From the NCBI GenBank assembly GCA_010015675.1, contig ML976985.1, forward strand, positions 1,074,037-1,138,036: a stretch of DNA of 64,000 nt. The letters run 5' to 3'. The position numbers and the translations under genes are program-made. The stretch is from Byssothecium circinans. Lineage: Eukaryota > Ascomycota > Dothideomycetes > Pleosporales > Massarinaceae. The notes under the pieces were generated by a model, which worked only from the letters and a program-made list of their open reading frames with translations, searched no databases and was not told the DNA's origin. Positions within the stretch are counted from its first letter, which is position 1. Each line of letters opens with the position of its first letter. Below, in pieces: positions 3,532 through 64,000 of this stretch.

Positions 3532-5249
3532 GTTTTGCACGATTTGCACGAGATAAGGATGCAGCAGCGCTGTCGGTTTGGGGCCGTATCGGGATATCGG
3601 TGGGCTTATCGCGTGGGCAGGTCGATATGTGTATGGATATCTACGTTGGGACACGTTTGGTCTTGGGTGGACTGGACTGGACCGGACCGGTATCGTATCA
3701 GGGGCCTAAATTGCCCGTAATGGCAGCGAGCAGGATGAGGTGGTTGATGGAACGTGTCGTCATTGAAGGGTGCCGTGAGTGCTGTTGCATTCAGACAGTC
3801 TTCTGCGGAGGCTGCGGAGGGCAAAGGGCAGCGGGCAGTCCTGACCACGGCGGAGCAGCGATCTGGGACCCTGGGCGGGGCGCTTCTTGTCGCAGGGTGG
3901 ACAATGGGGGGAGTCTCTGCCAGCACGATCCGGGGAAACACACACATGGATATATGGTGCATCCATGCGAGCCTCAGCGTCTTTTGAGTTTGAAGCTTCG
4001 TCCCTCTCCCTCTCCGCGACATGTGCCTGGCGGTCCGTGCTCTATCCGTTTGTCATTAGCCCCGAGCGTCGCATCCAGCAGCGATAAGGAGGTCTAACCA
4101 CCAATAGGGCGCCCTGCACCCCACCCAGCCCCCAGTGTGCGCGTAAAATTATTAGACCATCTACGGAGCCCTTAGAGATAGCTGGGAGGATCGCTATCAA
4201 TCCGCTGCTGCCATGCCTCGCTCCAGCCAAGCAGTGAATTGCTGTTAGGTACGAGTTTGCCATAGCCGCCATGGCGCTGCACGTCACAGATGAAGTTGAC
4301 GGACGTTGAGCCCAAATCTCTGCCAGCCAGATCGCAGCCGTTGATAAGGCGACGTCATTATCCATGCTCGACCTCTCCACAGTGGCAGTTATCTCCCCAC
4401 AGCGGGCACGATGCGATGCAGATGCAGCAAGATCCGGTGTCCGGACTCCGGAGTCTGGCGGTGAAGTCGCGACGGTACCACCATCTCCGCCAATCCCTAC
4501 CGCCGTTATGTAATCTACATCTTACGGTGGTACATTATTCACCCGCTTCCACCGGCGCCGCATCTACCGAGATACGCTAACGATAACGGTTCTGCTTACA
4601 TACTCCAAGCCCCCCTCCGCTACACCTTCCCCCAAGCCCTTCACCTCCTTTCTGCTTCCCCTCTCTACCTACGTACCAGTACATGTACACACAAACTCTA
4701 AAACTATAAACCCCAGCACGCATCCCCAAAACCCCGGAATCGATGTGTCAAGCCTTCGGAACGTCGCCTTGCCATGCTGACATAAGGCCTGGGTGCTGGG
4801 TTTTGGGTTGGCTAAGTGTTAGGTGCTGCGCTCACGCCTCCGCTGGCTCTCACTGGTTATGAAGGAGACAGGCATGCGATGGCCTCGGTGACTTGTGGTA
4901 TTTTTGCGCTTTGAATTTTTTTTTTGGCCTGTAGGGCTGTGTGGGAACGTTGCATGTTTGACCGGATAGGTAGTGTGCCATGGTTTGCAGTTGGGTAAGT
5001 AGGTAGCGCTTGCCTGGCAAGTGGAAGGGAGAGGAGAGGAGAAGTCGAGGGAGGTGAAACTACACATGCAGTATATCATGTTTTGGGTGCGAGGACGAGG
5101 ATGACATTGCAGATAGGAGACTGACGAGACGTACGAGCGTCGGACGTAAAGTTCAAACTGGGAACACACAGAAAGTACCACCAAGGTAAAAATAAAAAAA
5201 TAAAAATAAAGAGACAACCTACATACTAAAAAAATAAATAAGCCGTCAA
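3532..5249. other. Intergenic; promoter of the TamA-like gene and 3' flank of the C2H2 gene
   Basis: About 1.7 kb separate two genes on the - strand. The part next to 3531 should hold the promoter and 5' UTR of the transcription factor. The part near 4,900-5,249 is A/T-rich and probably holds the 3' UTR of the zinc-finger gene. Open frames on both strands are short and show no domain. No RNA gene was recognised. Confidence 0.6.
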
Positions 5250-8149
5250 TCAATGCAGACAATAAACATCAACCCCATTCGTCATCCGCACCACAACCCC
5301 CGCCGTCAAACTACTATGCAGCACCAACCCCCCGAAAACCCCTCCCCCATCAACCTTCCTGAACAACCTTTGGGAATTCTTACTCAGCTCGCCCTCCCCG
5401 CCGTCGCGAATATACAGTCGATTCCGCGCGCTCGCGTCCAGACGGCGGCGGTAGAACTTCGGACACGCGTTCACTGCATCGAGGGGGCGCGAGGAGACGG
5501 GGAATCCGGGTTTGTGTTGAGGCGGGAGATCTTTGGTTGCGTGTTTAGGATGGGAGTGTGGCGACGGCGACGCGTTGGTGCCGTAGGCGAGGTCGATGGT
5601 CGCGGCGCGGGTGAAGAAGTTGTTGGAGTCGCGGAGCTCGATGTCGGTATCCTGCTGCTGCTGCTGTTCAGGCATGGTTTGTGCAGAGGCCTTGCGACCG
5701 AGTCTGCGCCTGGGTGCTGTTTTAGGCGTTTCAGAGGAGAGGTCCATGAAGTTCATCTTTGGCATCGGAGGTGCTGGTTTCCCCTTCTCCTTCTTCTTGC
5801 CGCTCTGTTTGACGGTGCCTGAATTAGGATCTGTATATGCCCGTCGTATAGGAGCTGCATCTACTGCTTCAAAGACGGATGGCTTGACTTTCTTGCAGGA
5901 CTTGAGAAGCAGTGTCCAGCCTGCCCATAATGTTACGTCGTGATTCGTACTGTGCGAGTCCTGAAGGTGCTGGCGAAAGCGTTGACCGGAGAAGTAGAGA
6001 CGTTGGTTGCAGTTTCTGAAGTTGTGTTGAGTGACGTGGTCCTTTAGGATTGTGCCCTTGACTTTCCCGTTGCCACGGACGAGGGTGGTATTGCAGTAGC
6101 AACAGACTGCTTCGAGCTGATCTTTGCGTCTGGAAGGATATATTGTATATTGCATGCCAGGCAGAAAGCTACAAGACCACATCGTACAGATTGGGTGGAG
6201 AGATTGGGCTGTAGCAAGGTTGGGGAATGTACGGGCACAGTAAGCACATTGATGTGCAGAGTCACTGCGAGAATGTTAGCAGATTGATAGCCACGAGAGG
6301 GCTGATACCTCGGAAAGCATGACTAAAAGTTGAAACTGGCTTGTACAATAAAGCAACTTACGGGCTATAACTCGCATCCCTTCGTGCAACAGCTTTATGA
6401 CTAGTTCTCGCCGTCCACCACGACATCATATCGAGGCCTTCCATAAAGTGCCTAGCAACGTGATCGGTCCTCTCCTTGTAGGTTGAAAACGTAAGCCCAC
6501 AGAACCCGCAGTGCAGCGCCTGATGACCCTGCTTCAACGGCAACGGATGGCGCCAGGCTTCCAGCAGCTCTGTCAAGCGTAACGGTTTCTCGCTAGGACT
6601 GACCTTGTGCTCATGGTTGATATGCTGCAGGAAGAAATCCTTGCGAGAGAAGGTACGTTCGGACAGCGGCTTGGATTGACAGGAAAGGTAATTGTGGTCG
6701 GCAAGATGTGATGGGCTGGGATCTCTCTTCGCACAGAAAGGGCAGCGATCAAGAAATTCGCCGGCTCGCGGGCAACAGACCCAGAGTTCTTCGGGCATGT
6801 GGATGGTTTGCTCATGCCTCATCCATTCAGTACGGCTGTGGAATCGCTTTTGGCAAAAGGTGCAGTAGAATCGTGAACGTTTACTCGGTTTGCGCTCTAC
6901 CGGTGTGTTCGTGATGGCCTTCCTCTTGTGGACGGACTTGCGAGCCTGCTCGTCCAAAGCACCATTGGACTTCGTCCTACGGGGTATTCTGCTTTGGTGT
7001 CCTTTGCTTTGGTGTCCTTCGACCAGTGTACCGCTCGTACTCGGCCGATCAGGCAAGTCATCCGTTGTACTTGGTGCCACGCGTGACTTTAGCCGTTGGA
7101 TGCTTTTAGCGCCCAAGACGTCACCGCCGAGTATCCATGCGAGTTTTGGTTCCGCTGCCATTCGTTCATGAGCCATTTCATCAGTGATTTGTGGTATCAA
7201 CAGGTCAGCATTATCTCTCTCTGCTCTGTAGTGTCGAAGCTGTTCCTCCAGCACTTTCGCCTTGGCCTGGATCCTTGCAATCTCTGCTTCAGCTCTAGCT
7301 TTGTAATCGATCATCTTGTCTGGCGAGTACCCGGGAGCGACCATCTCCATCTGCTCGGCCCAGGTCTTCTCTGTGTCGACTGTACGGGCCGTCATGGGCC
7401 GCTCTGGAGACCATAATCTTGCATGGCTCAATTCGTCAAGTTTGGGTCTATAGTGAAACACAAAATTAGCGAATTTCATTCATGCTACCAATCAAGAGCG
7501 TGGTTCCAAAAGATAACAGCACATGGGGCGAATTACTACATACGGTTGTGGCATATGCGAATGCGTATGACTCTGCTGATGATGATGTCCATTTCGACTT
7601 TTTGATGTTGCACTGTAGGAAGTGCCCGTGCTATCCGGTGCACTTCCCGACGTATAAAACGTGCGACGACCTTCCGAGTTGGCATCATACGAGCTTTCTC
7701 TAGAGTGAGGTCGTCGTTTCGTAGTGATACTGTTAGGCAGCCGTGCGATGCGACTTCTGTTCGAGTTGTGATCCTTCAGTGCTGCATCGATCGCTGGGAC
7801 AGAAGCCGGCTCGTCTTCTAGAGGCGCACTAAGGTAGCGCTCGATTGACACTAAAGGCAAACAGAAAGTTAGTGATGTTCACTTGGTGGAATGAGAATAC
7901 ATTATGTGTGAAACCGGCATGCTTACTTCGATTGGCGGTTTGAGAGGCTGCGATCTTGGCTGCACTACTGTCAAAGCGGCTTGGGATTGCTGGCAAGGGC
8001 CGTCTCGGGCCTTCGGAGTATTCTGAGGACTCATATCTCTGGGTCGATAGGATCGCTTCTGAAGCTTTTTAGCGCATGAAAAACACCTAGTTTGCTGACC
8101 TACCTGAGCGAGACTTTCGAAGGCGATGGGAATGGAACCAACTCTTCAT
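5250..8149 (-). CDS. C2H2 zinc-finger protein, five exons
   Basis: Predicted 861-residue nuclear protein: complement(join(5250..6264,6362..7447,7544..7850,7927..8058,8104..8149)). All four introns (97, 96, 76 and 45 bases) have GT..AG ends and keep frame. A charged coiled-coil-like segment lies near residues 211-240. A classical C2H2 finger starts at YCTFCQKRFHSRTEWMRHEQ (about 355-377). A CPFC finger-like unit follows, then a second clear finger CGFCGLTFSTYKERTDHVARH (about 473-494). The last exon adds CAYC...H and CCYC...H units and NCNQRLYFSGQRFRQHLQDSH. This chain of fingers is typical of filamentous-ascomycete C2H2 regulators of unknown target. The C-terminal half is Ser/Pro/Gln-rich with a short poly-Gln. 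The target genes cannot be inferred. The first mini-exon (15 residues) is the least certain part. Confidence 0.8.
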
Positions 8150-9814
8150 TGTGGCGTGCTGTTGTTGACGAATGTCCAGCTAAGCTGTACGGAGTAAGCT
8201 CAAGATTCTGCTCAGTTTTGTATGGCGATGCGCCCAAGTTGGGCGAAGCGAGATGAGTGAGCGTTTAATAGATGTCAATTCAAAACAAAATCTCGTCCTC
8301 TGCCATAGTAGCTGGAATCGGACTCATATGTAGACTTCTCGGTCCTGTCCTTTCCCAGCCTCCAACACGAACGGCAACAGATGAGACACCTTTAGCCTAC
8401 AACGGGCCAGTATCACTCTCATCGAAATCCGGTACCGAACCAACCTCTTCCGACTGTGGGGAGATGTGCTATCCATTGAATGAGGGTCAATGTCTGGATC
8501 GCGCATGAGTGATGCACGGTTCGAGGTGTGCCTGAAACTCATCATGCCTGGTTTGCAGTCAGTCTGGGGTAGCTGCAGCTCGTCATGCAGGGGAGTTGTG
8601 CCAAGACGATAGATGTACGAGAGGAACAGCCGGAGAGACGGGCGCTCATGCTTTGGAGCTATGATGATCATCCGTGGATAGACAATGGGATAGCATCGCC
8701 GATAGTGAAGGGTTGGAAATCGTTGAAAGCAAGCCAGAGGAGAGTAACGATGAAATCATAAGTTTGACAATAGGATGTTTTGAGTAACAGTAAGCAGAAA
8801 CGATCGCCTGCCAGGCATGTTGCTATAGTCGACAAGCGAATACGTGTCGCGTATTATGCGATCGATACACGGTGAAGAGGAGCGACTCTGATAAATTAGC
8901 TATTCATTCGTAAAAATGAAGTCGAAGTTCGGCAAGCTGTTGAGGGTTTCCCGACCTCATCTTGGGTCGATAGCGGAGTGTGCGCTCCGTTCAAGCCGTG
9001 AATCAAGTCCTCCCGAAGAACAGCTAGGGTTAAAGATGGCTTGTAGGAACAGGACTAGCCTCAGCAGATGCAGTGTGCCTCCAATATTGGCGTGGAGAAT
9101 GCTGGAAGTTTGGTGACATTTATCCAGATGAGACGCAAGTGACGATGCAAGAGGGACGACGCGAACCAGAAGACGTCGGAACGTTTGCGGGGAGGCGCGC
9201 TAACCGAGATAGGAAGGGACCGTGCTTCAGATGGTTCTTCCCTTGCAGTGCGTTCATGCTTTGGGTTTTCTAGAAGCCAGCCATCTTCCATGGCCCGATG
9301 GTAGAAGCATGATGGTGTCATTGTTGGGGATTTCATGCGGGTGAAGGTAGTGGCTTTACGGAGGTTGACTGCACGCCTATGCTATGACGGATAGTCTGAA
9401 AATATTCTTGAAATATTCCAATGGATGTGAGAACGGCTCCAGTATTCGTGGGAGATGTTGTTGGCGATCTCCACTCACGTCAGCATCGTCCGATAATTAC
9501 CAGGTGTAGGTAAACGAGTGTCATCCAATGCCATGCTATTGCTCATAGGTCGTATCTTGCTTATATACAGTACGGAGCATCGCCGCTCGTGCAAAGCGGC
9601 CGCTGTAAGCTCCAAATAGTCATGCAGTCCGTTCCAAGTCATTCATTCCGCTGTCATCATGCCGTCGTTACATAGTTTAACCATATTCGCTCAAAATCGA
9701 CAAGAAGGACGGGTGGCCGCCGTAGCCAAATAGCGCGTAGTGTGTCGTCTGGCCGTCCGCGCTCGCTGCGCTGCGGTGGAGGCTCCGACAAGAGGGGAGT
9801 GCGTGCTGGCCGGC
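8150..9814. other. Intergenic; no convincing gene
   Basis: This stretch lies between the 5' end of the C2H2 gene and the 3' end of CKS1. It should contain the C2H2 promoter. Several frames of 60-115 codons exist on both strands but lack domains, splice structure or biased codon use. A short TATA-like stretch occurs near 9560. I see nothing else to name. Confidence 0.55.
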
Positions 9815-58095: not shown

Positions 58096-58242
58096 CTACA
58101 GAATTCGCCACCTCATAAGGTTATAGCAGGAGCGGGTCAGCCGCCCTCCCTGCTAGTATGATTAAGGTGTTCATGTATTCTAGCAATCTTGCTATTCCCC
58201 CCCTCTAGCTCGACGGCGCCTACCCCTCTATAAATAGGGATA
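58096..58242. other. Spacer between the LTR element and element 2
   Basis: The first five bases are the right CTACA duplication; the last two are the TA duplication of the next element. The remainder is less A/T-rich and unidentified. Confidence 0.6.
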
Positions 58243-58287
58243 ACGTGTTCCACTAAGCAACGCACGGTCCTAAGCAACGCCTACTTT
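58243..58287 (+). repeat. Left terminal inverted repeat, element 2
   Basis: 45 bases matching the reverse complement of 60332-60376 with three differences, all transitions. AAGCAACGC occurs twice within it. Confidence 0.9.
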
Positions 58288-58429
58288 TGGCGATGCATAC
58301 CACGTAAGTATTGAAGCTTTACAGCGCGTTATAGGTGCTAGAGATGCCGGATTTTTTGTAGGAGCGAATAAGAGAGCTAGATAATTTAATTAGGAGCGAT
58401 AAACTACATGCGATAGCGTTGTGGGAGCT

Positions 58430-60326
58430 AAACTTTGTGGGTGCGCGTTTCCCTAGGCATAGAGGACCCTACATCTTTAGTAGGCATCTCAATAACCTCA
58501 GCAGCCTTAGGGGCCGTAGGAGGTGCTGTAGGTAGTAAAGGAGTCTTCGCGCTTTATCTATTACCCTTTTTAGAGGCTTGTAAGTCTTGCCAAAGTTACT
58601 TTTTAACTTGCTTTGCGATACGCGTCTCCTCACGCTCGCGAGCCTTAGCTTGCTACTATTAAAGGCGTATTTCTTTAGCTACCAACCGCAATCGCGCCCT
58701 CTCTTTAAGCATAGCTTATTTCTCCTGCTTTTGAAGCTCCTTTGCCTTTTGCTCCTCTAACTTTTGAAGCTGTAGAGCCTCATTATTGGCATCCTTTTAA
58801 GCTTGGCGCTCACGAGCTTATTGAACCTTTATAGGAGACTAAAAAACCACGCTACCATTGTATTCTTGTAGCGCTTTAAGTAGAAGAGGTTTTCTACGTT
58901 AGCGACGCTTCTTCTCATTCATAAGAGCTTCACGAAGCTTCTCATTTTCATGCTATAGTAGCTGCTTTTGTATAGCAATAGTGTAAATTAACTAAGAGAG
59001 CTATTAAGATTAACTATTATATACGTCCTCCACTACCTGCCTTAGCAAACGCTTAATCTTGCGCTAGTCGGACGCGGAGAGTACTAGCGTAGTGCTTTCA
59101 CTTAATAAGGGCCTCTCTACCTCTTTTAATTTAAATCTCTTTAAGACTACCTTTACGTTAAGAGGTAAGATCTCTATAGCTTTAAAGCCCGCTTCAATAT
59201 TCAATTTTGTGAAGGCTGTATGCTAGGCGCGGTGGAAAAGTCAGTAGAAGTCTCATTTAGTAATAGAGGAGATACCCTAGCAGTTATATATGAAGTTGCT
59301 AAGCTCTATAGTGTACGCCGTTGAGAGAGGCTTAAAAAGCGCGACGTCAAGCGGCTGAAGCGTATGGGTGCTATGTGGGGGTAGTATAGCAAGTAGGATT
59401 TAATTCTCGTCGCAAAATTTAATAAAATCTATTATAAGGTGTGATCCATGGCCATTAAGGATTAGTAGGCGATATGAGCGCCTTACCTTTGCCTTTATCT
59501 CTTAATTAAACACCTACTTAAGCTACGTAAGGCCTAAATTATTATTAGTCCACCCACTTAGTGATAAGGTGAAAAAGGTTTTATAGATAGCTAGGTTAAA
59601 GTCCTATAACTAGGTATCCTATATCTTGCCCAACGTAGCTTAGTAAATCAACGCCGGCCGTAAAGCTGTGCCGTTAGCGCAGATATACGCGACTATCGTT
59701 ATCCACTCGCGATTGCCGTCCTGAATGGCCTGCTAACGTAGCCCTGCCTTATATCGCCGCCGTGTGAAGACTCTCTTTATTTTAGTGAGCACCCTAATAA
59801 GGAAGCCCTTCTTATCTATATTGTAGGTATTGCAAGGCTTAACGTCGTATTAGGTAATCTTATCACTTAGCAGCTTAAAGTAGAGCTTGTATTTAAAGGC
59901 TAAATTGGCGCGGTAGCGCTGGGCGTCAATAGGGGCGGTCCATTGATTCATAAGCTCGATGCTGTTACGCTTAAGAAAGCAGTCTACCTAATTTGTTCCT
60001 AGCTCTTTTCCAGCTATCTAAGCGGCGAAATTTCGTATCATTTACTTTATAGGAGGTAGGCCGCGTCCGCAGAGCTTATCTATGTATTTTATAAGCTCTG
60101 ATTCTTGTTAGTGGTTGAGAAGTTGCATTTTAAAGTTGGCTTTCTGTCGTGTGCCCTAAACACCCCTCCATCTCTTCGACAGCGTTATTCAATTAATGCC
60201 GTGTTTTTTTGCAAGCTGCGTGTAATTAGGTTTATCTCTAAGCTTTAGCGACTCCAAATCTGTAATCGCAGCATCCATATTGTGTGTGGTTGTAGAGATA
60301 TTGAGGTTTGAAATTTGTGGTGGCAT
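58430..60326 (-). pseudogene. Degenerate pogo-type DDE transposase, element 2
   Basis: A reading frame with an N-terminal psq-type helix-turn-helix, a CENP-B-like region (QQESELIKYIDKLCGRGLPP) and the DDE core. Many internal stops make it non-functional. The C-terminal boundary is approximate: the tail is Lys/Arg/Ala-rich and fades near 58,430. Confidence 0.8.
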
Positions 60327-60331
60327 TCGGT

Positions 60332-60376
60332 AAAGTGGGCGTTGCTTGGGACCGTGCGTTGCTTGGTGGAACACGT
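60332..60376 (-). repeat. Right terminal inverted repeat, element 2
   Basis: Inverted partner of 58243-58287, followed by TA. Confidence 0.9.
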
Positions 60377-60595
60377 TATATAGTAAATAGTAAAATAATT
60401 ATTTGCAGGCAAAATGTGGGTAACAATATTCACGCTTTGTGGACGTATTGATTAATTTTTAATTAGTCTCCTCCTCATCGCTGTCAGTGATTAATGGAGA
60501 GCTTCGGGAAGAAATAGCGCGTGGTGTGAGCATGATCCTAATAATACCTAGAATTCCTTTGCCCTCAGCGAATCCATCCCATCGCCAGTCACATC
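60377..60595. other. Short flank between element 2 and the HeLo gene
   Basis: About 220 bases; presumably the 3' UTR of the HeLo-domain gene plus the TA duplication. Confidence 0.5.
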
Positions 60596-61435
60596 CTACC
60601 GCGTAAAAGGATTGAATCCATACGAAGGCCCCTGCGTGAGTCTACTCTTTTCCCCCTTCACCACGTTACGCTCCCAACGACCACCCAACGTATTTACGGT
60701 TCCGTAGTAACCAAGAGAGAAAAATTCGCCCTGGTACAGATCGCCACCGTCCTCGGCGATATTCCCAACCCACTCATTAACAGCCCTCACCTTGACCATA
60801 TCTGCGAACTTCTGATCAACAACCAAAGCAATCTCCTGGAGAAGGTTGATATCCTTAACATTCGCCTCGGGCTGCTTCCCGATTTCGTTTGCGTCCTCGG
60901 CCCGCATTTGGTTGAGGCGGTGCTCCATCTCAGGCGTTGGGATGATCCGTTCGAGGTTGGACACCTGGACTGAGGCGTTCTCCACGAGTGCCTCGAATTC
61001 TTTCTTCCCGCGTATCGCCCAGCGGACTTTATTGCGAATGGAGGATGTACTGGTATGATGTTTGCGCGAGAGGCACTGCAAAGACTTAACTAGCCAATGC
61101 TTCTTACTTTCTTCTTCAGCATCGCTGGTGTCCACCTCGTATGGTTTGGAAAGCTCCTCCTCTTTCTCGAACAGGCTTTGGATATCGCTCAAATGCCGTT
61201 TAACCAGGCTCCCATTTGCCTCCTTCACAGCCCGGTCACCTACTTGGATGAGGTTGTTCACGGCGTCGTGCCAGCGGTGCAGTCGCAGTTTGAGCACTTC
61301 GAGCTGGAGAACGTAGCGCTGGTGCGTCTTATCAAATTCTCTACCGACCTGGACGCGATCAAAGTTGTTTAATACACTATCGAAAAGTGCGCTGAGGCTT
61401 ATAGCGCCGATGACGAGGCCTGCCACTTCGGCCAT
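60596..61435 (-). CDS. HeLo-domain protein with C-terminal HET-s-like amyloid repeats
   Basis: A single-exon 279-residue protein. Residues 1-215 or so match the HeLo domain: the N-terminal hydrophobic helix (EVAGLVIGAISLSALFDSVL), then FDRVQVGREFDKTHQRYVLQ and LRLHRWHDAV. In the HET-S family this helical domain is held inactive and forms membrane-disrupting assemblies once triggered. The C-terminal tail looks like a two-repeat amyloid domain. Repeat 1 is WVGNIAEDGGDLYQG at 222-236. Repeat 2 is WERNVVKGEKSRLTQG at 254-269, followed by an aromatic YGFNPF end. Total length and repeat placement are close to those known for HET-s of Podospora. It lies 617 bases from, and divergent to, an NLR whose N-terminus carries a related motif. 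The frame is intact despite the transposon graveyard 220 bases away. The motif call is by eye. Confidence 0.85.
   Translation of the reverse strand: MAEVAGLVIGAISLSALFDSVLNNFDRVQVGREFDKTHQRYVLQLEVLKLRLHRWHDAVNNLIQVGDRAVKEANGSLVKRHLSDIQSLFEKEEELSKPYEVDTSDAEEESKKHWLVKSLQCLSRKHHTSTSSIRNKVRWAIRGKKEFEALVENASVQVSNLERIIPTPEMEHRLNQMRAEDANEIGKQPEANVKDINLLQEIALVVDQKFADMVKVRAVNEWVGNIAEDGGDLYQGEFFSLGYYGTVNTLGGRWERNVVKGEKSRLTQGPSYGFNPFTR
60599..60772 (-). other. Two-repeat amyloid signalling region of the HeLo protein
   Basis: Codons 222-279. Both repeats share W-x-x-N, then 9-10 residues, then QG. A linker of about 18 residues (EFFSLGYYGTVNTLGGR region) separates them, and an aromatic end follows. Each is expected to form strands of a beta-solenoid; this is inference from the HET-s family. 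Confidence 0.6.
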
Positions 61436-62052
61436 TTCGGGTGATGTTACTTTAGAATGGACGCAATAATGTTCTCGAAGAGGCGACCTTCATCACCATA
61501 TTTAACAGTGCGGGGTAAATCGGTGCCGCGTACGTCTTTCCGGTCAACGATATTTGAGAGGGTCGCCCGGCTTAGTGTCTACCGGTCAAGAGCTGGACAT
61601 TGCAGGGACTGGAATCCCTAGCGCCTGCTCCCACCCAGTTAAGAGGTTGAGCAACTCACCGCACATTCATTCCGGTTAATATGAACCTAGCGAATTGGCT
61701 CGAATAGGCCACCCTACATTAGGCTAAAGCCCTAGGCGGGGGCTTTGACGATAACGGTGTCTGGAGCAAGTGTAGGGTTGATTTGTGGAGCGCAGCTAAT
61801 GGGCGCGCGCCTCGTGTCCCGACAGCTGCAAGGATGAACTAGAGAGGCAAAATTAGGCGACACCAGCCGAACGAAGAATGGGTTAAAATATTTTGCTCGC
61901 AATGCAGCTGAATAACCTGGTAAGTAGTCGAAGAGATTACCTATTGTTGAGTGACCGGTTAAATACACTGCTAGGGTATTCTCCAGAGATCTCCAGAGAT
62001 CCGTCTCACCTAAATCGATAGCATCAATGATGGTCAAACCTCAGCAACTGCA
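61436..62052. promoter_or_regulatory. Divergent promoter of the HeLo/NLR pair
   Basis: A 617-base gap between head-to-head start codons. A perfect direct repeat of CTCCAGAGAT lies at 61981-62000, about 50 bases upstream of the NLR start. No other gene is convincing; a - strand frame at 61732-62037 has no domain. A shared promoter would allow co-expression; this is inference. Confidence 0.5.
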
Positions 62053-64000
62053 ATGGATGACCATACTCCATCTGCAGGGAGGGATCAGTGGGTCGGGAAC
62101 GTCATAATCGACTCTAAAGTCCACCAAGGCCCCATCAATTACACCATCTACGAAGATGGCGGTCCTAGGAACGCGGCGAAACAAGACCTGGAATGCTTCC
62201 AACATCTACGAGTCACCGATCCTCGCCATGATAAGAAGCGCATTGAAGACACCAAGGGTGGCTTGCTGAAGGACTCGTACCGCTGGATCCTCGAAAACCC
62301 CGACTTCCAACGATGGCGTGACGACCAGCAAAGCCGGCTGCTGTGGATCAAAGGCGATCCCGGCAAGGGCAAGACGATGCTACTATGTGGAATTGCAAAC
62401 GAACTGATGAGCTCAATGGCCAAGACAGCTCTTCTTTCCTACTTCTTCTGTCAGGCCACGGACTCGCGAATCAACACCGCCACGGCTGTGCTTCGAGGCC
62501 TCCTCTACTTGCTTGTCAACCAACAGCCATCTCTCATTTTGCATGTACGGAAGAAGTACGATAGCGCAGGCAAAGCGTTCTTTGAGGATACGAATGCTTG
62601 GGTTGCCCTAACGGAGATCTTCACGGACGTGCTGCAGGACCCGAGCCTGAACACCACATACCTAATCATCGACGCACTGGATGAATGCATTACCGACTTG
62701 CCAAAGCTGCTCGACTTTGTGGTAAAGCAGTCATCTGCGTCCTCTCACGTCAAGTGGATCGTCTCTAGCCGCAACTGGCCGAACATTGAGGAACGGCTGG
62801 AGCGGGCAGGCCACAAGGTGAGACTGAGCCTGGAGCTGAACGCAGAATCCGTCTCAAAGGCTGTCAGCATCTTCATCAAGCAAAAGGTGTCTCAACTGGC
62901 GCGGCAGAAGAAGTACAACGAGCGGACCCGAGACGCCGTGCGAGCGCATTTAGCGTCGAATGCGAACGACACCTTTCTCTGGGTAGCGCTGGTGTGTCAA
63001 GACCTCGAAGTGACGTCGAAATGGAGCGTGCTAAAGAAGCTAAATTTGTTCCCACCCGGACTGGACTCATTGTACGGGTGGATGATGCAGCGGATTAACA
63101 AGTCGGACGATGCTGAACTCTGCAAGCAACTGCTGGCTTCAATCGCGCTCGTATACCGACCAATCACGCTAGAGGAGCTAGCGGCCCTCGTTGAACAGCT
63201 TGAAGACATAGCTGACGACCCGGAGTCAATACGGGAGATTATCGCCCTTTGTGGCTCATTCCTGACCCTGCGAGAAGAGACTATTTACTTTGTGCATCAG
63301 TCGGCTAAGGACTTTCTCCTCGCCAAGGCAGCTAAAGAAGTGTTCCTATCTGGAAGGGAGGATGTCCATTACACCATCTTTGCTAGATCACTCGAAACTA
63401 TGTTTAGGACCCTACAGCGGGATATGTACGGCTTAGAAGCGTTAGGATATCCTGTCGAGGACGTCAAACAGCCAGATCCTGATCCGTTAGCAGCATCGCA
63501 CTACTCGTGTATGTACTGGGTCGACCATCTACGCGACTCGAATCTCAAGTCTTCAGCGGGCTACGTCGATGGTCTGCGGGAGGGCGGTGTTGTCGATGTG
63601 TTCCTAAGGAAAAAATATCTCTACTGGTTAGAAGCTCTTAGTTTGTACAAGAGTGTGCCGAAAGCCGTGGTCTCGATGGCGGAACTATGGTTACTGGTCC
63701 AGGTACGTTCTAAAGCAACCTAGTTAGATAATTTTTATGACACAAACTAGGATAGAGGAGATACAGACCCGTTCACTGAGCTTGTTCATGATGTGTATCG
63801 GTTCGTTATGTATCACAAGGGAGCAATCGAGAGTAGCCCTCTTCAGGCATATACATCTGCGCTGCTATTTAGTCCAACAAAGAGTTTAATTAGAAGGCAG
63901 TTCCAGCACGAAGAGCCGAAATGGATCACTATCAAGCCGGCTCCGGGGGCCAGCTGGAGTGCTTGCCTGCAGACGCTCGAGGGCCACAGCCGCTCCGTCA
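62053..64000 (+). CDS. NACHT-WD40 NLR with N-terminal amyloid motif (partial)
   Basis: An NWD2-like STAND protein, join(62053..63702,63751..>64000), with a 48-base intron (GTACGT..AACTAG); it runs off the window. Residues 13-33 carry WVGNVIIDSKVHQGPINYTI. A conserved linker follows (LRVTDPRHDKKRIEDTKGGL). The NACHT NTPase has Walker A GDPGKGKT at about 101-108 and Walker B LIIDALDEC at 204-212. After the intron the helical spacer leads to SACLQTLEGHSRSV, the start of the first WD40 repeat. In this family WD repeats sense a ligand, the NACHT domain oligomerises, and the N-terminal motif templates amyloid folding of the partner HeLo protein, causing cell death. No stop or frameshift is visible in the part present. 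The WD array beyond 64,000 is unseen. Confidence 0.9.
62089..62151 (+). other. N-terminal amyloid signalling motif of the NLR
   Basis: Codons 13-33, reading W-V-G-N, eight residues, Q-G, then a hydrophobic/aromatic run. It parallels repeats 1 and 2 of the HeLo protein. A single copy ahead of NACHT is the known NLR-side arrangement. Confidence 0.65.

Follow-up and report, generated by a model that had tools for sequence, protein, structure and literature searches.

The window analysed here, a stretch of 64,000 nucleotides, lies within contig C9 (1,417,624 bases) of the Dothideomycete Byssothecium circinans (order Pleosporales; genome 48.4 Mb). It contains a gene for a HeLo-domain protein on the minus strand and, as its divergent neighbour on the plus strand, a gene for a NOD-like receptor (NLR) of the NACHT-WD40 type, with 617 base pairs (bp) between the two open reading frames (ORFs). 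A short motif occurs once at the N-terminus of the NLR (r0) and twice at the C-terminus of the HeLo protein (r1 and r2). We consider it probable, at roughly three chances in four, that the two genes together make up a cell-death unit of the HET-S/NWD2 type, with the NLR as receptor and the HeLo protein as effector. Similarly arranged pairs have been in the literature since 2012 (PMC3321046); neither the layout nor the mechanism is new, and the Byssothecium pair is a sequence variant of the known system.

What the three motif copies have in common, once their coordinates are re-translated, is the pattern W-x-x-N-(V/I)...(L/V)-x-Q-G, and its W, N, Q and G are all retained in r0, r1 and r2 of Byssothecium. 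Local (Smith-Waterman) alignment of the 64 C-terminal residues of the HeLo protein to the 50 N-terminal residues of the NLR gave a score of 37, which was reached by 21 of 5000 shuffled N-termini, by 23 of 5000 shuffled HeLo C-termini and by none of 151 internal windows of the same NLR. A search with NLR residues 1-80 returned 294 matches, 120 of them listed, and none of the N-termini of the 119 listed NACHT proteins other than the public model of this NLR (P0015) reached 37. The tails of 12 relatives of the HeLo protein, described below, scored 36-55 against the window NLR N-terminus; 0-11 of 1000 shuffles reached the respective scores, as did at most one of the 119 other NACHT N-termini among the matches listed, and ten of the twelve tails match the window NLR better than its own HeLo tail does. 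A profile of 23 repeats from these relatives ranks the window NLR as the best non-HeLo protein among 134 proteins, with E=0.031, which misses the inclusion threshold. Given how short the match is and how modest the profile statistics are, position and adjacency carry part of the weight. A first-pass annotation, made from the letters of the window, had placed both ORFs and the three motif stretches where we find them. It had named the proteins a HeLo effector and a NACHT-WD40 receptor, as the domain matches now bear out (PF14479, PF24883 and PF05729, with PF00400 in P0015), and the arrangement that it proposed, a divergent pair in which the NLR has the motif once and the effector twice, agrees with the ORF layout and with a motif match above shuffles.

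The effector assignment is supported by both sequence and predicted fold. The HeLo family PF14479 is matched with E=4e-30 (105.6 bits vs a cut-off of 23.2), and it is matched by all 13 proteins of the set formed by the window HeLo protein and its 12 relatives. The HET-s/HET-S HeLo crystal structures (2wvn, E=3e-17; 2wvo, E=9e-16; 2wvq, E=1e-13; three distinct sequences) are the sole sequence relatives in the PDB at E<=10, and a Foldseek search with the predicted HeLo fold retrieves 2wvq_A, 2wvn, 2wvo_A and 2wvq_B (E from 7e-7 to 1e-5) and no others at E<=0.001. AlphaFold, run with 13 sequences, also produces the HeLo helices. One column of the PDB sequence alignment, which we take to be position 33 of HET-s (the title of 2wvq names P33H), holds Pro in HET-s (2wvn), His in HET-S (2wvo) and Glu in the window HeLo protein. 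Proline at position 33 helps inactivate HET-s; since the window protein has Glu at that column, the inactivating Pro is absent, an observation that is suggestive only.

A protein search with the HeLo sequence found 14 proteins: the query itself, 12 relatives with 43-78% identity and one remote protein (P0014, 28%). The relatives come from Paraphaeosphaeria sporulosa (Pleosporales), from Phaeosphaeriaceae, presumably also Pleosporales, from Podospora comata (Sordariales), and from Naviculisporaceae and Rhypophila, which we take to be Sordariales; the rest are environmental. No relatives were found in viral and prokaryote contigs, as expected of a fungal gene. One alignment covers 13 of the 14 proteins (P0014 omitted) and a second covers 12 of the 13 tails (P0012 omitted, its record ending before r2). 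W222, N225, E228 and G236 of r1 are invariant in all 13 proteins, and G224 is present in 12 of them. The second repeat keeps W, N and G in the 11 relatives whose records reach it, and in all 12 records long enough it is followed by an aromatic tail of the YGFNPF type, with Y, N, P and F invariant. In a tree of the 14 HeLo proteins, five rows (three Sordariales and two environmental) split from the other eight with a support of 94/100; two pairs are starred and the order within the eight is not fixed. The Podospora comata protein P0007, 66% identical to the window HeLo protein, groups with Pleosporales and apart from P0011-P0013 (43-46%; 94/100), a placement that may reflect horizontal transfer or old paralogues.

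Are these repeats related to those of HET-s? A PDB search with the window HeLo tail as a single sequence gave no match. A profile of 12 tails, the window's own included, searched against 177,635 PDB sequences, has the HET-s prion domain as its second and third matches (2mus, E=0.091; 2kj3, E=0.14). In the alignment, which covers profile positions 13-58, the latter half of r1 pairs with repeat 1 of HET-s and r2 pairs with its second repeat; the conserved Gly is in register, as is a Tyr-Gly past r2. Control profiles gave no HET-s match (best E=0.52 for the reversed profile and 0.35 for the column-shuffled one). The match is weak by its E-value, but its identity and the two-repeat register are informative. 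At the site that corresponds to the YGFNPF tail, HET-s is described as having a functional aromatic loop (PMC4518210; PMC5485727). The annotation's claim of a HET-s-type motif is thus supported at the level of a conserved family, by the 12 HeLo relatives and the register match to the HET-s prion domain.

The repeats can also be compared with the published definition of the HET-s-related amyloid motif (HRAM), which requires, by the text of PMC4518210, a HeLo protein shorter than 310 residues whose last 80 residues contain the motif twice, with a loop of 6-18 residues between the copies. The window protein has 279 residues, with r1 and r2 within residues 218-271 and a loop of about 11 residues by counting, and its aromatic tail fits the pattern described for HRAMs as well; among the relatives, P0011 has 317 residues as deposited. 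Glycine at position 19, invariant in HRAMs, is present in 13 of 13 r1 and 12 of 12 r2. Of the positions expected to be hydrophobic, position 5 is Trp and position 16 is Leu, Val or Ile, while position 10 is mostly Ala and position 18 is Gln or Met. Arg or Lys, preferred at position 15, is found in 8 of 13 r1 and 8 of 12 r2, the window's own r1 having Asp. Position 3 (Asn, Gln or His in HRAMs) is Asn in 12 of 13 r1, and Gly or Cys in the 11 gapless r2. At positions 4, 6, 7, 11, 12 and 13, r1 and r2 form 16 pairs of opposite charge and no pairs of like charge in the 11 relatives counted, which are those of the 13 proteins with gapless r1 and r2 (the window protein and P0012 omitted). On the NLR side, the single copy at the N-terminus is present and is one residue shorter than r1. 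It has few charged residues and contains S and H, and low charge together with S and H is reported for NLR-side motifs (PMC4518210).

The first open frame of the NLR gene encodes 556 residues and matches NPHP3_N (PF24883, E=1e-36) and NACHT (PF05729, E=5e-15), along with a winged-helix match below the cut-off. WD40 (PF00400) is among the precomputed domains of the annotated NLR P0015. At the locus L007 the WD40 unit is 126 bp long and is present in 3.5 copies with 90% matches, and the three full copies of P0015 have 30-37 of 42 residues alike in the three pairs; strong internal conservation is a described feature of fungal NLR repeats (PMC5485727). The public model P0015 (window positions 62053-63999) omits VHQSAKDFLLAK, which is present in the open frame and has the look of an ordinary winged-helix motif, and it uses a later splice acceptor than the one proposed here. 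Both differences are probably annotation errors. Two loose-pattern matches within the first 60 residues of the 119 listed NACHT proteins were judged on reading not to be the motif. At residues ~12-28, the NLRs P0020 and P0047 have a stretch that reads GNxFGNNxxxHQGDVH or nearly so, in the same register as r1; Trichoderma harzianum is among the sources, and these stretches may be r0 motifs of a related class.

The layout of the window pair is that of HET-S/NWD2 of Podospora anserina (HRAM1). The genes het-S and nwd2 are likewise divergent and adjacent (PMC3321046), and 155 two-repeat HeLo-related proteins with 98 adjacent NLRs were published in 2015, the NLR-side motif copy being described as common (98 of 155) and not required (PMC4518210). 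Both systems combine a HeLo effector with two C-terminal repeats and an aromatic tail and a NACHT-WD40 NLR with one N-terminal repeat, and the repeats align in register; the window pair differs in being missed by the Pfam HET-s motif profiles, in having Trp 5, Asn 8 and Gln 18, and in the absence of Asn 3 from r2. The HELLF/FNT1 pair of the same species has a HeLo-like domain, in contrast to the HeLo domain of the window protein; structure 6EKA is, we assume, that of HELLF. The similarity here consists in a two-repeat tail on a membrane-attack domain adjoining an NLR, and HELLF shows that very divergent HRAMs retain the solenoid (PMC7889193). Gln 18, which precedes the conserved Gly, is one mark of HRAM4 (PMC4518210) and is shared by the window family, as judged from the text description; the same paper calls the HRAM4 protein of P. 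anserina HeLo-like, whereas the window protein is HeLo. The naming differs between sources, the P. anserina HeLo-like motif being HRAM4 in PMC4518210 and HELLF being named HRAM5 in PMC7889193. Pairs based on the PP, sigma and PUASM motifs similarly have an amyloid motif common to the NLR N-terminus and the effector C-terminus, but their published patterns, G-hydrophobic-Q-hydrophobic-G, GxGxQF/GGTQN and FxGxGxQxxGxGxF (PMC9815663, PMC3321046), are by reading absent from r0, r1 and r2. In the portions of the HRAM literature consulted, PMC9815663 and PMC12261475 among them and published logos and supplementary motif lists not covered, we found no report of this form of the motif. Literature searches for the literal motif together with HET-s, and for HET-s-related motifs with HeLo in Dothideomycetes, found no papers.

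How might such a unit work? Past the recognition of domains and motifs, the steps are modelled on the experiments with HET-S/NWD2 and HELLF (PMC4518210, PMC7889193, PMC12881547), and the amyloid fold, templating, membrane attack, trigger and biological role are inferred by analogy with those systems. At rest, the NLR would be monomeric with its short r0 tail unstructured, and the HeLo protein would be soluble with an unstructured r1+r2 tail. Binding of a ligand by the WD40 array would lead to oligomerisation through NACHT, and the clustered r0 tails could then fold into the rungs of a beta-solenoid. The folded r0 would then be the template on which r1 and r2 of the neighbour-encoded HeLo protein adopt that amyloid fold, and the N-terminal HeLo helix would thereby be freed to attack the cell's own plasma membrane and kill the compartment, with cell death possibly serving as an immune or allorecognition response.

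Several results weigh against reading the pair as a unit of the HET-S/NWD2 type. None of the 13 HeLo proteins matches PF11558, and r0, like the HeLo tail, matches no Pfam family, PF17108 included, and no NCBIfam family, so that the annotation's expectation of HRAM-type profile matches to the motifs failed for the Pfam profiles. A Pfam match is not a strict criterion for an HRAM, because PF11558 matches only 38 of the 155 published HRAM proteins (PMC4518210), and in the reverse direction the profile built from this family's tails does reach the HET-s prion domain. Over the genome of Byssothecium itself, PF17108 and PF11558 each give one sub-threshold match on another contig (E=1.8 and, with one stop inside, E=0.089, respectively). 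The top match of the tail profile is a bacterial hook protein (6xi1, E=0.032, no single stretch passing), and the HET-s match stands only 1-2 bits over the best control matches. Position 8, hydrophobic under the HRAM rule, is Asn in 13 of 13 r1 and 12 of 12 r2; a gapped register may hide this Asn. AlphaFold sets strands at matching places in the two repeats with low confidence (residues 226-227, 232-235 and 238-239 for r1; 258-259, 265-268 and 271-272 for r2), its confidence over the tail being 43-57 in 10-residue blocks, and the tail folded alone shows low confidence and a different strand pattern; structure prediction therefore does not decide. Searched against 7783 ORFs, a mechanical six-frame set in which overlapping loci are counted, the repeat profile gives the full NLR frame E=1.2 and ranks three chance ORFs (E 0.25-0.86) above it, with shorter copies of the NLR frame in two overlapping loci at E 0.18 and 0.73. 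Under a stricter pattern, none of the 119 NACHT proteins listed besides P0015 has the motif, a search with residues 1-45 of P0015 returns P0015 itself only, and searches of the Byssothecium genome with r0 and with the HeLo tail recover nothing but the query in each case. Since the two protein searches (with NLR residues 1-80 and with residues 1-45 of P0015) restrict the length of candidates and depend on exact word matches, NLRs longer than about 970 or 1490 residues, or with diverged tails, may be missed. The W-to-G spacing is 13, 14 and 15 in r0, r1 and r2, compared with 14 and 14 in the relatives. Finally, r1 and r2 of the window protein are no longer alike, their score being reached by 2668 of 5000 shuffles, while those of P0002 are recognisably alike (0 of 5000); of the shared pattern that the annotation had described, the likeness of r0 to the HeLo tail thus stands above chance and that of r1 to r2 does not.

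The unlikeness of the two repeats would also be expected of a decaying pair, that is, a former HET-S/NWD2-type unit in which the amyloid region of the effector is no longer constrained and signalling is weak or gone, with both frames still open. Decay would account for the indel in r2, the basic residue lost in r1 and the greater divergence of the motif region, and a degraded transposon lies 216 bp away. Compared with its seven clade relatives, the window protein is 67-83% identical in the HeLo part and 46-65% in the motif region (the relatives among themselves average 74% and 78%, respectively), and it departs from columns invariant in the seven at 8 of 32 positions in the motif region and at 5 of 102 in the HeLo part. 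When each relative is left out in turn, the departures number 0-1 among 24-25 columns of the tail and 1-13 among 98-110 columns of the HeLo part for P0002-P0007, and 9 of 33 and 12 of 109 for the environmental protein P0008; the window protein and P0008 are therefore the two outliers. In both repeats of P0008, however, the Gln that precedes the conserved Gly is replaced by Met, which looks like a concerted change and not decay. Moreover, the HeLo gene and exon 1 of the NLR are free of stops and frameshifts, none of the three copies has lost its W, N, Q or G, and a Pro directly after the Gly is common to the window's own r0 and r2, where the r2 of the seven clade relatives has Thr. The drift, seen in one genome, may fit either a concerted change to a new specificity or incipient decay; we regard a pair already in decay as unlikely.

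A coincidence, in which the HeLo protein is an orphan and the NLR next to it unrelated, would agree with the shortness of the match (14-17 residues), with its modest profile E-value among the 134 proteins, with the chance ORFs that outrank the full NLR frame, and with the lack of a second NLR with the motif among the matches listed in the protein searches. It is hard to reconcile with the score being out of reach for every other listed NACHT N-terminus and every internal window of the NLR, or with the relatives' tails that outscore the NLR's own partner (up to 55 vs 37), and in the 556-residue frame of the NLR no other effector domain is matched by Pfam at the N-terminus; we consider chance a very improbable explanation. 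The motif could, alternatively, be a beta or linear interface through which NLR and effector bind without forming amyloid, and the low AlphaFold confidence of the tail and the unusual Asn at core position 8 would suit such an interface. The register match to both HET-s repeats and the opposite charges of the tandem copies speak for amyloid instead, as does the precedent of HELLF, where HRAM repeats down to 17% identity form virtually the same solenoid (PMC7889193), so that a non-amyloid interface seems very improbable to us.

The annotation had suggested a variant motif subfamily, a proposal that has support on the effector side, given the 12 HeLo relatives and the Pfam misses of both the HeLo proteins and r0, and is left without a counterpart among other NLRs in the protein searches. 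A more far-reaching version, which we put forward as a tentative and rather doubtful possibility, is a sixth HRAM subfamily marked by Trp 5, Asn 8 and Gln 18, with a polar Asn ladder in its solenoid core and members in Pleosporales and Sordariales, within which the Byssothecium pair would be resetting its seeding specificity, its receptor and effector motifs drifting jointly from the ancestral code, as the Pro common to r0 and r2 and the altered spacing would indicate. HRAM subfamilies are regarded as signalling codes that are insulated from one another and built on one common amyloid fold. A subfamily missed by Pfam, with a polar core residue and a motif region outpacing the rest of the protein in one species, offers a sequence set for finding the residues that determine seeding specificity, and if the sixth subfamily and its resetting specificity were true, they would let the origin of new seeding barriers between parallel cell-death pathways be studied in a natural case. 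That the Pfam HET-s motif profiles miss the window pair also suggests that Pfam-based counts of amyloid signalling pairs can miss such pairs.

Table 1. Features of the HeLo/NLR locus, in window coordinates.
Feature	Position	Strand	Basis
HeLo effector gene, intronless, 279 residues	60596..61435	-	ORF; PF14479; HET-s/HET-S structure matches
HeLo domain, residues 6-185, N-terminal hydrophobic stretch retained	60881..61420	-	Pfam boundaries; 13-protein alignment
r1, amyloid-type repeat, residues 222-236	60728..60772	-	13-protein alignment; second half in register with HET-s repeat 1
r2, amyloid-type repeat, residues 254-269, one residue more than relatives	60629..60676	-	Alignments; matched in register to repeat 2 of HET-s
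Aromatic C-terminal tail YGFNPF, residues 272-277, past r2	60605..60622	-	Alignment of 12 tails
Intergenic region, 617 bp	61436..62052	.	ORF coordinates
NLR exon 1: r0, NACHT, winged-helix part	62053..63702	+	ORF; Pfam (winged-helix match sub-threshold); proposed donor at 63703
r0, single motif copy, NLR residues 13-26	62089..62130	+	Local alignment to HeLo r1/r2
NACHT domain, NLR residues 95-258	62335..62826	+	PF05729 E=5e-15
NLR intron (likely), 48 bp	63703..63750	+	Both candidate splices read; P0015 acceptor 30 bp later
NLR exon 2 start; WD40 array beyond window	63751..64000	+	Splice reading; WD40 units in locus L007

The genome contains six HeLo matches, three of which (on C9, C7 and C21) divergently adjoin a NACHT match. 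The second divergent pair, at locus L008 on C7, consists of a HeLo gene at 4577-5284 on the minus strand and an NLR gene from ~5530 on the plus strand; the HeLo C-terminus past a predicted intron reads SKIMHQGGTSHVHGN and the NLR N-terminus GRVAIQAGQYIVHGD. The two share a different, single-copy, palindrome-like motif, whose score was reached by 0 of 2000 shuffles, and PF17046 has no match in this genome. Because of this shared motif, the window pair may not be the only one of its kind in the genome, and the co-existence of several motif groups in one species has been described (PMC4518210). In the third pair (L009 on C21; HeLo at 4830-5624 minus, NLR at 6340-8598 plus) no shared motif was recognised by eye, and the NLR has C-terminal repeats of the MALLLDRKGD kind. 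Two further HeLo matches, at L010 and L012, lie in frames of 643 and 581 residues whose C-terminal parts appear kinase-like by eye. A promoter scan of the window locus was set aside, its bacterial model being irrelevant to fungal genes. The degraded element near the HeLo gene is a DNA transposon at 58240-60379 with 48-bp terminal inverted repeats (94%), and it is adjoined by an AT-rich stretch at about 48-60 kb that may be a product of repeat-induced point (RIP) mutation.

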